A stretch of DNA of 37,263 nucleotides from Candidatus Omnitrophota bacterium (GTDB lineage: Bacteria > Omnitrophota > Gorgyraeia > Gygaellales > UBA12090). Of this stretch, positions 18,792 to 31,839 are shown one piece after another. The stretch is taken from positions 1-37,263 of the forward strand of contig JAUSCZ010000025.1 in NCBI GenBank assembly GCA_030674475.1, given 5' to 3'. The position numbers and the translations under genes are program-made. Every line of letters begins with the position of its first letter. The first letter of the stretch is position 1. The notes under the pieces were generated by a model that was not told the origin of the DNA, ran no database searches, and saw nothing but the letters and a program-made list of their open reading frames with translations.

Positions 18792-20039
18792 ATGCCGACC
18801 TATAAATACAAGGCTAAAAAGGGCTTAGAGACGACCGAAGGAAGGATTGAGGCCATTTCGGAGAAGGCCGCGGTGGAGAAGCTGGGCGCTTTGGGTTATC
18901 TTCCGGTAAAGCTGGAGGTAGACGTAGGGGCGGGTTCGAACCCGCCCCTACCCGCGGAATTCGCCTTAAATAAAATTTCTTCTGGCTCAGGCAGTGTGGT
19001 CCGGGGCCGGATCAGGTCCAAGGATATTACTGTTTTTAGCCGCCAGCTGGCCAGCCTTTTAAAATCCGGGGTGCCGATTTTAAGGGCTATAGAGATCATT
19101 TCTGAGCAGTCAGAAAACCATAAGTTAAAAGCCATCCTTAGAAATGTGTATGCTTCAATAAAAGACGGCTCAACCTTTTCTTCGGCTTTTCTTAGATATC
19201 CGAATGTCTTCGCGCCTATTTATATAGCTATTATCCGCAGCGGCGAGGATAGCGGGGCCTTGCCGGAGGCCTTGTTAAGGATTGCCGAATACCGCCTTAA
19301 GCAGGAAGAGGTTATCTCCCGGGTGCGTATGGCCATGGCCTATCCTTTGTTTATGGGGTTAGTGGGCTGTGGCACCATAGTCTTTATGCTTACTTTTGTG
19401 ATGCCTAAGCTGACGCGTTTATTTAGCGGTATGAGCCAGAGCCTGCCCTTTCCCACCCGGATGCTGATGGCGGCCAGTTCGTTTTTGCGCCAGTGGTATC
19501 CGCTGATAATTATCTTTCTGGTGGTTTTTATCTTTGTCTTGCGGGCTCAGGCCAGGACCAAGGCGGGAAGATTATATTTGAGTTCATTTATACTCCGGCT
19601 TCCGCTGTTAGGAAAATTTATCCTTAAAGCTGAGCTCGGCCGTTTTAGCCGCACCTTAGGGTTGTTGATTAAAAACGGCATATCTATTTTAAGGGCTATT
19701 GACATAGCTATTCCGGCATTGGATAATGAGGTGATTAAGAATATCTTAAGGCAAAGCCATAAAGATTTAGAGCAGGGTGGTTCTTTCGGTAAGAGCCTTA
19801 AAAAATCCAGGTTGATCCCGGTTTTTATGAGCAATCTCATAATTATCGGAGAAGAGAGCGGAAAGCTTGACGATGCCCTGGCCGAGACCGCCTTTAGTTA
19901 CGAGCGCGATACGGATGAGTCTTTAAAGACTATGGCTAACTTGCTTGAACCGTTGATGATTTTGGTGATGGGCCTGATTGTGGGTTTTATCGTGGTGGCG
20001 ATGTTACTTCCGGTATTTGAAATGAACGCTGTTGTATAG
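18792..20039 (+). CDS. gspF: Type II secretion inner-membrane platform protein GspF
   Basis: 415 residues, usual length about 400. MPTYKYKAKKGLETTEG is the standard start; two GspF domains (about 75-200 and 275-400) each carry a helix with F-S-R-x-L-x-x-L-x-x-x-G-x-x-I-L-R-A-I, and there are three membrane segments (about 180-220, 235-255 and 385-410). It anchors GspE at the inner membrane. Residues VGAGSNPPLP (about 45-54) are encoded by a perfect 28 nt palindrome, placed between the short N-terminal domain and the first GspF domain where a linker is tolerated. It is transcribed with gspE; a GTG-started response regulator follows 18 bases later. Confidence 0.93.
   Translation: MPTYKYKAKKGLETTEGRIEAISEKAAVEKLGALGYLPVKLEVDVGAGSNPPLPAEFALNKISSGSGSVVRGRIRSKDITVFSRQLASLLKSGVPILRAIEIISEQSENHKLKAILRNVYASIKDGSTFSSAFLRYPNVFAPIYIAIIRSGEDSGALPEALLRIAEYRLKQEEVISRVRMAMAYPLFMGLVGCGTIVFMLTFVMPKLTRLFSGMSQSLPFPTRMLMAASSFLRQWYPLIIIFLVVFIFVLRAQARTKAGRLYLSSFILRLPLLGKFILKAELGRFSRTLGLLIKNGISILRAIDIAIPALDNEVIKNILRQSHKDLEQGGSFGKSLKKSRLIPVFMSNLIIIGEESGKLDDALAETAFSYERDTDESLKTMANLLEPLMILVMGLIVGFIVVAMLLPVFEMNAVV
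18924..18951. repeat. REP palindrome, 28 nt subtype (copy 10) inside gspF
   Basis: Arms GTAGGGGCGGGTTC and its exact reverse complement; a G-C-richer subtype without a central odd base. Read in frame as VGAGSNPPLP. Confidence 0.95.
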
Positions 20040-30080: not shown

Positions 30081-30482
30081 ATGAGAAGAAACGGTTTTAC
30101 CTTGATTGAGCTTATGCTGGTAGTCATAATTATCGGCGCGCTGGCGGCAATGGTTATACCCCGCTTTGCCGGAAGGGGTGAGCAGGCGCGCGTGGGAGCG
30201 GCCAAGGCTGATATCCAGGCCAATATCGCCACCGGCCTAAAGATGTATGAGATGGATAATGGAAGTTTCCCTACTACAGAGGAGGGTTTAGCCGCCTTGT
30301 TAGGTAAGCCCTCATCAGCTAACAACTGGAACGGCCCTTACCTGGAAAGAAAGGCTATTGATCCCTGGGGACGGGAATACAAATACAAATCTCCCGGTGA
30401 ACATCGGAGCGCGGATTATGATTTGTATTCTTTGGGTAAAGACGGCGCGGAAAGCGCGGACGATGTCAAAAACTGGGACTAA
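30081..30482 (+). CDS. gspG: Type II secretion major pseudopilin GspG
   Basis: 133 residues. The prepilin leader MRRNG is cut before FTLIELMLVVIIIGALAAMV, with Glu at +5 for assembly. The C-terminal part has the GspG features N-N-W-N-G-P-Y-L, D-P-W-G-R-E-Y-x-Y and Y-D-L-Y-S-L-G-K-D-G, including the calcium-binding region of T2SS major pseudopilins. This identifies the system as T2SS rather than a type IV pilus. GGAGGGAGG precedes the ATG. Unlike gspI and gspJ its leader holds no palindrome. Confidence 0.95.
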   Translation: MRRNGFTLIELMLVVIIIGALAAMVIPRFAGRGEQARVGAAKADIQANIATGLKMYEMDNGSFPTTEEGLAALLGKPSSANNWNGPYLERKAIDPWGREYKYKSPGEHRSADYDLYSLGKDGAESADDVKNWD

Positions 30483-30484
30483 AA

Positions 30485-30585
30485 AAGAATAAATCAACCG
30501 TGCCGGGTAGGGGCGGGTTCGAACCCGCCCCTACGATAATTACCAATAATCATTCTACATTATTTACGTTTGGTTATTGGTGCTT
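30485..30585. repeat. 101 bp direct repeat, first copy (gspG-gspI spacer)
   Basis: Identical over 101 bases to 31078-31178. It contains a REP palindrome and the hairpin ACCAATAA/TTATTGGT. Both copies begin at the 3' end of a pseudopilin gene and end just before the next one. Confidence 0.95.
30507..30534. repeat. REP palindrome, 28 nt subtype (copy 12)
   Basis: GTAGGGGCGGGTTC and exact complement, inside the 101 bp repeat. Confidence 0.95.
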
Positions 30586-30602: not shown

Positions 30603-31085
30603 ATAAATAAGAGAGGGTTTACCCCGTTAGAAAGCTCCCTAAGATTGGGAGGTAAACATAATCAAAGAAAGCACCAGCAGAGAACACCGCTCTTTCTAAC
30701 GGGGTTCACTCTGATTGAGGTGTTGGTTACCACCGCGGTTTTATCTTTGGGCATAGTGCTTATCTACCGGGCATTTTTTACCCTGCTGGATTCCTTTGGT
30801 TATTACAGTAATTATTTGAGGGTGATTGCTTTCGCCGATGAAAAACTCTGGCAGGCCCAGGACACCTTAAGTTGTTCCGGCTCTGATGCCGGGGCAGGGT
30901 CCTCGGGCAGGCTGAATATTCAGAATAAGGATTTTAACTGGAGGCTTTCGGTCAGTGAAGTAGGGGCGGGTTCGAACCCGCCCCAACTCTACAGAATAGA
31001 TTTGGCGGTGAATTGGCATGAAGGCCAGAGAATAAGAGGGCTTACCCGGAACGGGTACGCGCTGTATATCAAGAAAGAAGAATAA
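30603..31085 (+). CDS. gspI: Type II secretion minor pseudopilin, GspI-like, with palindrome-expanded leader
   Basis: The mature part begins FTLIEVLVTTAVLSLGIVL after a TG leader end, with Glu+5, and is about 125 residues, fitting GspI by size and position between gspG and gspJ. The leader is about 34 residues instead of 5-8 because a palindrome has been inserted, giving K-R-G-F-T-P-L-E first and then T-G-F-T-L-I-E. Start is unclear: by comparison with gspJ (GTG after AGAGGATAAT) the equivalent codon here is ATA at 30603, 5 bases after GGGAGG; the first ordinary start in frame is TTG 30570, inside the repeated spacer. A REP copy adds VGAGSNPPQL near residue 120. Two insertions in a small gene suggest tolerance or loss of function. 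Confidence 0.75.
   Translation: MNKRGFTPLESSLRLGGKHNQRKHQQRTPLFLTGFTLIEVLVTTAVLSLGIVLIYRAFFTLLDSFGYYSNYLRVIAFADEKLWQAQDTLSCSGSDAGAGSSGRLNIQNKDFNWRLSVSEVGAGSNPPQLYRIDLAVNWHEGQRIRGLTRNGYALYIKKEE
30621..30705. repeat. Palindromic insertion in the gspI leader
   Basis: 14 bp arms ACCCCGTTAGAAAG and CTTTCTAACGGGGT with a long loop that holds CTCCC/GGGAG. Flanked by GGGTTTAC (30615) and GGGTTCAC (30702), 87 bases or 29 codons apart. Confidence 0.88.
30960..30987. repeat. REP palindrome, 28 nt subtype with one mismatch (copy 13) inside gspI
   Basis: Final CTAC is CAAC; otherwise exact. Read in frame as VGAGSNPPQL. Confidence 0.92.
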
Positions 31086-31178
31086 ATCAACCGTGCCGGG
31101 TAGGGGCGGGTTCGAACCCGCCCCTACGATAATTACCAATAATCATTCTACATTATTTACGTTTGGTTATTGGTGCTT
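31078..31178. repeat. 101 bp direct repeat, second copy (gspI-gspJ spacer)
   Basis: Perfect copy of 30485-30585; similarity then continues imperfectly through the ribosome site and leader codons of the next gene. Confidence 0.95.
31100..31127. repeat. REP palindrome, 28 nt subtype (copy 14)
   Basis: Inside the second 101 bp repeat, identical to copy 12. Confidence 0.95.
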
Positions 31179-31194
31179 AGTATAAGAGGATAAT

Positions 31195-31839
31195 GTGAAA
31201 AAGAGAGGGTTTACCCCGTTAGAGATAGCGGGGGGTAACTATAGACGGCCGCCTAAAGGCGGCCTATCTCTAACGGGGTTTACGCTCATCGAGCTGTGCT
31301 TAGTAAGCCTGATAGCTTCGGTGATCGGCCTGGCGGTGTATTTTACTTTTAGTAACGGGATGAGAATTTGGCAGAAGGCGAATCAGAAAGTTGTTGAGGA
31401 GGATTTAAGTATATTTTTTGACCGATTTGCCTCAGATGTAAGAAGCTGCCTGAAATTTTCCGGCCTGGGTTTTTTAGGAACCCAGGAGAGGCTTGAGATT
31501 GTTTCCCGTGTGGTTAGTAGGGGCGGGTTCGAACCCGCCCCTACTATAGGCCGGGTGGCTTACTTTTATGAGTCGAAAAGTAAGGCCTTATTCAGGGAGG
31601 AAAAGGACCTCAGCCGGATATTCGAAGGCAAGCAAGGAATAGTGAAAGGGATTTTAGAAAATTTAAATTCTTTGAAGTTCGGGTATTACTTTTATGATAA
31701 AGAGAAAAAAGAATATGTCTGGCTTGAAGATGCCACTCTTGATGGATTACCGCTGGCGGTCAGAATAGAATTTGAGCTTAACACTAAGAGTTCAAGCGGC
31801 AAATTTGTCAGGACAGTAAGTATCCCTATCGGCGGATAA
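31195..31839 (+). CDS. gspJ: Type II secretion minor pseudopilin, GspJ-like, with palindrome-expanded leader
   Basis: 214 residues from GTG 31195, after AGAGGATAAT. The leader is 28 residues, running M-K-K-R-G-F-T-P-L-E ... S-L-T-G, and the mature part starts FTLIELCLVSLIASVIGLAV with Glu+5. Size and a following W-Q-K-A-N-Q-K-V helix fit GspJ, which forms the tip with GspI and GspK. A REP copy at 31517 is read in another frame as RGGFEPAPT. With the leader palindrome removed in thought, the start would be M-K-K-R-G then FTLIE, a normal short leader. Assignment between GspH, I and J rests mainly on order and length. Confidence 0.78.
   Translation: MKKRGFTPLEIAGGNYRRPPKGGLSLTGFTLIELCLVSLIASVIGLAVYFTFSNGMRIWQKANQKVVEEDLSIFFDRFASDVRSCLKFSGLGFLGTQERLEIVSRVVSRGGFEPAPTIGRVAYFYESKSKALFREEKDLSRIFEGKQGIVKGILENLNSLKFGYYFYDKEKKEYVWLEDATLDGLPLAVRIEFELNTKSSSGKFVRTVSIPIGG
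31213..31279. repeat. Palindromic insertion in the gspJ leader
   Basis: 16 bp arms ACCCCGTTAGAGATAG and CTATCTCTAACGGGGT enclosing a second hairpin GGCCGCCT/AGGCGGCC. Flanked by GGGTTTAC at 31207 and 31276, 69 bases or 23 codons apart. Confidence 0.92.
31517..31544. repeat. REP palindrome, 28 nt subtype (copy 15) inside gspJ
   Basis: Exact copy; codons are shifted by two relative to the other coding copies, giving RGGFEPAPT. That frame is also free of stops. Confidence 0.95.

Follow-up and report, generated by a model that had tools for sequence, protein, structure and literature searches.

The window analysed here, a stretch of 37,263 nucleotides from a Candidatus Omnitrophota contig, carries a type II secretion (T2SS) cluster for which Pfam reports gspG (T2SSG), an N_methyl pseudopilin, T2SSJ and T2SSK; T2SSG, T2SSJ, T2SSK and N-methylation motifs thus lie clustered together, as in a T2SS pseudopilin operon. 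The gspG-like major pseudopilin gene (30081..30482, plus strand; T2SSG, E 2.5e-31, and N_methyl) has an empty leader, MRRNGFTLIE. On the same strand follow a gspI-like gene (30603..31085; recognised from its translation, with a weak N_methyl match over residues 32-53) and a gspJ-like gene with a GTG start (31195..31839; T2SSJ, 26 bits, under the 28-bit cutoff). Scanned as whole proteins, both fall slightly under the Pfam cutoffs. Their orthologues in a congener (G335) share 85% identity from GFTLIE onward (gspI) and 88% (gspJ), and a prepilin peptidase gene was found in the genome. We placed the gspI start at 30603 by alignment with gspJ; the ORF caller gives TTG at 30570. An ATA (30603-30605, GAGGATAATATAAATAAG) stands where gspJ has its GTG, and gspI may use either this rare start or the upstream TTG.

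Within each of the two prepilin leaders lies a palindromic element, CCCCGTTAGANNN...N'N'N'TCTAACGGGG. The earlier note had described palindromes between a GFTPLE and the GFTLIE of gspI and gspJ, and this holds: both frames are open throughout (KRGFTPLE...LTGFTLIE) and the arms are not accidental. In gspI, the left repeat GGGTTTAC (30615-30622) contains the left target-site duplication TTTA (30618..30621, plus strand; its 4-bp length derives from 214 copies), and the element itself, CCCCGTTAGA...TCTAACGGGG, spans 83 nt (30622..30704, no strand assigned) with the stem CCCCGTTAGAAAG/CTTTCTAACGGGG according to sequence and folding. The right duplication is TTCA (30705..30708, plus strand), one change from the left, within GGGTTCAC (30702-30709). 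In gspJ, GGGTTTAC stands on both sides (31207-31214 and 31276-31283) and both duplications read TTTA (31210..31213 and 31279..31282, plus strand; the left one again backed by the 214 copies); the 65-nt element between them (31214..31278, likewise without strand) folds into the stem CCCCGTTAGAGAT/ATCTCTAACGGGG with an inner hairpin. The repeats are 87 nt (29 codons) apart in gspI and 69 nt (23 codons) in gspJ. These distances agree with those given previously for identical direct repeats. Three of the repeats are GGGTTTAC and the fourth is GGGTTCAC, a mismatch that had been overlooked. From the prepilin consensus, the mature proteins are predicted to begin with Phe 30705 (GspI) and Phe 31279 (GspJ).

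Two side observations concern the same genes. The spacers 5′ of gspI (30481-30585) and gspJ (31074-31178) are 99% identical to each other, and the corresponding two spacers of G335 (locus L311) are about 90% mutually identical over 210 nt and unrelated to those of the window, which suggests that both upstream regions may have been replaced repeatedly in concert. A GTAG-tagged, REP-like palindrome (GTAGGGGCGGGTTCGAACCCGCCCCTAC) occurs five times in the window (30507-30534, 30960-30987, 31100-31127, 31517-31544 and 18924-18951); the two copies within the gspI and gspJ frames encode VGAGSNPPQ and SRGGFEPAPT, and at these places the residues of the congener differ.

Structure, target site and distribution of the element

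Could such palindromes arise by chance? The pattern GGTTTACCCCGTTAGA (up to three mismatches) had four sites against 0.39 expected, a number reached by 0 of 100 shuffles, and the DNA hairpin z-scores of the two elements are -3.3 and -5.9. When the arm pair was searched in this genome and in 384 genomes of the phylum, with the reversed pattern as control, 17 forward matches appeared in this genome and further ones in 85/384 genomes (70/283 genera); the control gave 0. Chance is ruled out by the shuffles, the z-scores and these controls, as well as by the 14 intact copies of the element in this genome (a number that rests on pattern searches) and its phylum-wide occurrence. The junction TCTAACGGGGTTYACNYTNRTNGA, with at most two mismatches, was present in 64/384 Omnitrophota genomes, controls being near zero; the pattern is therefore not peculiar to gspI and gspJ, which answers the earlier note's question of a phylum-wide occurrence, and it extends beyond the phylum.

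Comparing the flanks of 214 copies at all offsets revealed a 4-bp direct duplication immediately outside CCCC...GGGG, identical in 153 of them. The 8-bp duplication GGGTTTAC that the direct repeats of the earlier note would suggest is rejected by the same comparison, which gives exactly 4 bp. In copies not selected for their flanks, the duplications were TTTA (33, as TAAA/TAAA), TTCA (11, as TGAA/TGAA) or mixed (6), with CGAG, TCAA, CTCA and CAAG as rare duplicated flanks. Since left and right tetramers covary (Fisher 3e-6), the rare ones included, the flanks are real target-site duplications. In the phylum sample, about 43% of duplicated sites are bordered by G on the left side and by C on the right; the target is therefore G-TTYA-C, and the duplication mainly TTTA or TTCA.

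The terminal inverted repeats consist of CCCCGTTAGA plus three covarying base pairs, as seen in 194 distinct cores. Beyond the 10 fixed pairs of CCCCGTTAGA, exactly three more positions are complementary yet variable (paired in 179, 172 and 153 of the 194 cores versus 83, 107 and 66 expected; at least 17 kinds of triplet), and at the next position complementarity is at chance level. Interiors and lengths vary: most cores differ, and only scattered sub-classes share an interior, short of the common interior of a MITE family. Prepilin leaders also harbour palindromes with other arms and the same CCCC/GGGG tips and TTTA duplication, namely CCCCGTTCCAAAT, CCCCATTACAAAT and CCCCAAACAAAAC (loci L289, L290, L291 and L313, the last at 1455-1507). 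At two further loci (L172, L315), one element is inserted in or beside another within a single prepilin leader (GFTPLEKATDFNPVRNKLSNGVREQSSLTGFTLIE).

Among the matches listed from a named genome collection, the element also occurs in at least about ten other phyla, with the proviso that bin assignments, and hence phylum labels, may be wrong. Copies at GTTYAC sites among these matches come from Omnitrophota, Planctomycetota, Nitrospirota, Elusimicrobiota, several Patescibacteria, Desulfobacterota, Nitrospinota, Cloacimonadota, WOR-3 and others; 18 of 119 lie in prepilin leaders, including those of Planctomycetota, Nealsonbacteria and Doudnabacteria. Other copies sit in frame within ordinary, unprocessed proteins or, with their duplication, in intergenic DNA, and one element-rich genome (G230) holds 84. 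In three loci (L093, L056, L183), in-frame copies lie within ordinary-looking enzymes, e.g. AAA-ATPase-like (LAEDACPVRDKTPEVSDGCLRQPVSNGVNLEKLAEIT) or dihydroorotase-like ones, identities that we guessed from sequence. Phages are no evident reservoir, the element being found in just five contigs of the viral collection, mostly small, and spread by viruses was set aside as an explanation.

Target, reading frame and the prepilin cleavage motif

What brings this element to prepilin leaders? This genome encodes about 30 prepilins (29 N_methyl matches and gspJ), and ten of their leaders carry inserts, some with decayed arms and two with double inserts in tandem. Half of the intact copies from the pattern searches (7/14) lie in leaders, compared with 30 of 884 GTTTAC sites (p 1e-7; 5/12, p 3e-5, when the two copies of the window are omitted); because the test assumes equal tolerance at all GTTTAC sites, this enrichment reflects insertion preference and survival together. 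We read the inserts, with a probability of roughly 85%, as copies of a non-autonomous mobile palindromic element, close in life-style to Rickettsia palindromic elements (RPEs), which makes a 4-bp duplication, preferably in G-TTYA-C, and thereby regenerates the prepilin cleavage motif.

Leaders are hit, first of all, because G-F-T is encoded by the target sequence G-TTYA-C. The codons GGG-TTY-ACN specify Gly(-1)-Phe(+1)-Thr(+2), such that any prepilin leader with a GGG Gly codon carries the target sequence itself, the tetramer TTYA comprising the Phe codon and the opening base of the Thr codon. Once an element has been inserted, the right junction reads ...CTA-ACG-GGG-TTY-AC..., or Leu-Thr-Gly-Phe-Thr. 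As Gly(-1) is re-created by the terminal GGGG of the element, and Phe-Thr by the right TTYA duplication together with the host C, the mature protein is predicted to be unchanged. About 19–29 codons come to lie between the original leader start and the re-created cleavage motif, in a phase set by the target (FTPLx...LTGFT) and stop-free if the insert is a multiple of three. Prepilin peptidase would then cut after the second Gly, before the hydrophobic helix, and remove the peptide encoded by the element; the insertion would be nearly neutral, the left motif would be free to decay, and the regenerated site can take another insertion, giving rise to tandem inserts.

Several observations bear on this scheme. 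The FTPLE phase is used by 26 of 28 leader copies versus 30 of 75 elsewhere (p 1e-6), and outside leaders the NPVR...SNGV phase is commoner. Insert plus duplication add up to a multiple of three in 29 of the 35 copies with both sides open for at least 100 codons, and in 13 of the 30 that lack an open stretch of 60 codons on either side. By ORF length, the fractions are 97/111 (long) versus 43/107 (short), a comparison with some circularity, as an insert that shifts the frame makes the ORF shorter by itself. A hydrophobic segment follows the right motif only, not the left GFTPLE, and in three of the ten occupied leaders of this genome the left motif has decayed to GLA, GPA or NFT. The data fit cleavage at the second Gly but are no proof of it, because the right motif had served to find some of these genes.

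Two suggestions of the earlier note can be judged against this background. The left GFTPLE, regarded there as a mimic of a cleavage site, is no adaptation but a by-product of target duplication and element end, since TTTA followed by CCCCGTTAGA in that frame always reads F-T-P-L-E/D, in non-pilin genes as well. The idea of a safe harbour at the protein level fared better: the whole insert precedes the predicted cleavage point, insertion places are strongly enriched for leaders, and the mature sequence is conserved across presence/absence pairs of congeners. Yet the element is not a leader specialist, because many copies are kept in frame within proteins that are not processed.

Might the insert benefit its host, as a portable basic leader that brings its own Gly(-1) and improves or changes prepilin targeting? 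The leader peptides that it encodes are indeed basic, with a mean charge of +3.0 against +2.2 in non-pilin copies read in the same frame (p 0.04), and in some occupied leaders the left motif is preceded by Ala or Ser and the right one by Gly, which looks as though the element had changed the -1 residue. The charge difference is small, though, and the test was unplanned; moreover, the unoccupied prepilins of this genome manage without an insert, and the left motif decays. We thus consider a benefit of this kind improbable, if the least so of the alternatives.

Recent movement and competing explanations

Within the genus, the element comes and goes. One pilin gene of this genome (contig C32, 110038) is occupied and its counterpart in G335 is empty (AAAACGGGGTTTACCATGATTGAG); for a second one (C32, 106862), the situation is reversed. 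As such clean occupied/empty pairs exist in both directions, insertion is recent. We took them from these other pilins because gspI and gspJ offer no clean empty site: in G335 their leaders are short and free of the element, and the sequence that follows is 85-88% identical, but the whole spacers and leader starts also differ from those of the window. Across the order, the gspJ leader bears different inserts in this genome and two others (G122, G362) and none in G335 and three more (G202, G277, G106). On a related contig (L127), a double insert takes the place of the single one found in this genome, and a neighbouring pilin has a different element at the same place.

This turnover weighs against selected regulatory mRNA hairpins of pseudopilin genes, for instance in translation control of minor pilins. 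Stable hairpins just 3′ of the start codon, recurring in pilin leaders, would suit such a function, but presence flips between orthologous genes of congeners, its length and interior are free to vary, the hairpin is missing from 20 of about 30 prepilins, and the same element is found in unrelated genes and outside genes, all of which renders this explanation very unlikely. Least likely of all, if by a small step, is the spread of pilin N-terminal segments by gene duplication or conversion instead of transposition: upstream spacers and leader starts of gspI and gspJ are nearly identical as far as the left arm reaches, and some homogenisation between neighbours is seen, but the two genes have different inner arms and interiors, the element with its duplication recurs in intergenic DNA and in genes other than pilins, and gains take the form of clean insertions bounded by TTYA.

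A non-autonomous mobile element, our preferred reading, would presumably be transposed by an enzyme that it does not itself encode. None of nine DDE_Tnp_1 loci examined as potential partners had an arm with both a matching partner and a target duplication, and 30 Y1 loci yielded two isolated arms with one mismatch and no complete element; neither set has a credible link to the element. (Y1 transposase matches in this genome number 11.) The absence of complete elements at Y1 loci and the covariation of left and right tetramers also disfavour a Y1/IS200-type insertion without duplication. Between arm pairs 0.3-3.5 kb apart, no transposase-like frame was recognised by eye; the intervals hold ribosomal-protein, pilin and other host-like frames.

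Mobilisation by recognition of shape is possible. We also put forward, tentatively and at clearly less than even odds, a more far-reaching proposal: an undescribed cross-phylum class of mobile hairpins, recognised mainly by their shape (CCCC/GGGG at the tip and 13 bp of stem, the last three pairs of which are variable yet complementary, with an inner arm that is wholly replaceable), would target the coding sequence of the universal prepilin motif G-F-T and find in secretion and pilus genes a renewable, self-repairing refuge.

The observation itself is real and general, and is explained mechanistically at the level of target and frame. It offers a concrete molecular reason for a mobile element in secretion genes, in that the target consists of the cleavage-motif codons and the element's own end rebuilds the motif. 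With the translated insert expected to be discarded by the peptidase, the idea that selfish DNA finds refuge in processed leader peptides becomes directly testable. For annotation, it follows that GFTPLE...LTGFTLIE leaders and NPVR...SNGV segments in many proteins of uncultured phyla are derived from the element.

Relation to known systems

Our search of the open-access literature found no description of the element, of GFTPLE, of palindromes in pilin leaders or of MITEs in Omnitrophota, and by this measure the element is undescribed so far. Rfam gave no match over threshold. In the attC sites of integrons, the arms follow the order RYYYAAC ... GTTRRRY; here it is reversed (GTTAGA ... TCTAAC), and this identity was rejected.

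With MITEs (reviewed in PMC10969869), the element shares terminal inverted repeats, a target-site duplication of fixed length and the lack of coding capacity of its own. Unlike them, its copies have only the 13-bp stem (10 fixed and three covarying pairs) in common, with far more diverse interiors, and no autonomous partner was found near the DDE_Tnp_1 and Y1 loci or between arm pairs. GTAG-type REP/RAYT systems (PMC3733652) likewise comprise palindromic repeats, sometimes within genes, and a REP of this type is present in the same two genes, gspI and gspJ; the element differs in having no GTAG tag and a real 4-bp duplication, and it does not flank the Y1 genes examined.

Its host genes belong to the type IV/type II prepilins (N_methyl, T2SSG/J), with their conserved G|FTxxE followed by a hydrophobic helix. 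Compared with an ordinary prepilin, an occupied one has a leader longer by about 19-29 codons per insertion and a decoy GFTPLE upstream. The closest likeness in life-style is to RPEs, which PMC10969869, citing Ogata et al. (2000, 2002), characterises as short palindromic selfish DNA, non-autonomous and in frame within unrelated protein-coding genes. The present element, too, is a short non-autonomous palindrome kept in frame in genes, as its 3n lengths and open frames indicate. It departs from RPEs in its CCCC/GGGG ends, in place of their CGTC tag (PMC3733652), in its smaller size (about 45-120 bp against about 150 bp), its TTYA duplication, its variable interior, its occurrence in many phyla and its hotspot in cleavable prepilin leaders, and it extends protein-coding palindromes of the RPE kind far beyond Rickettsia.
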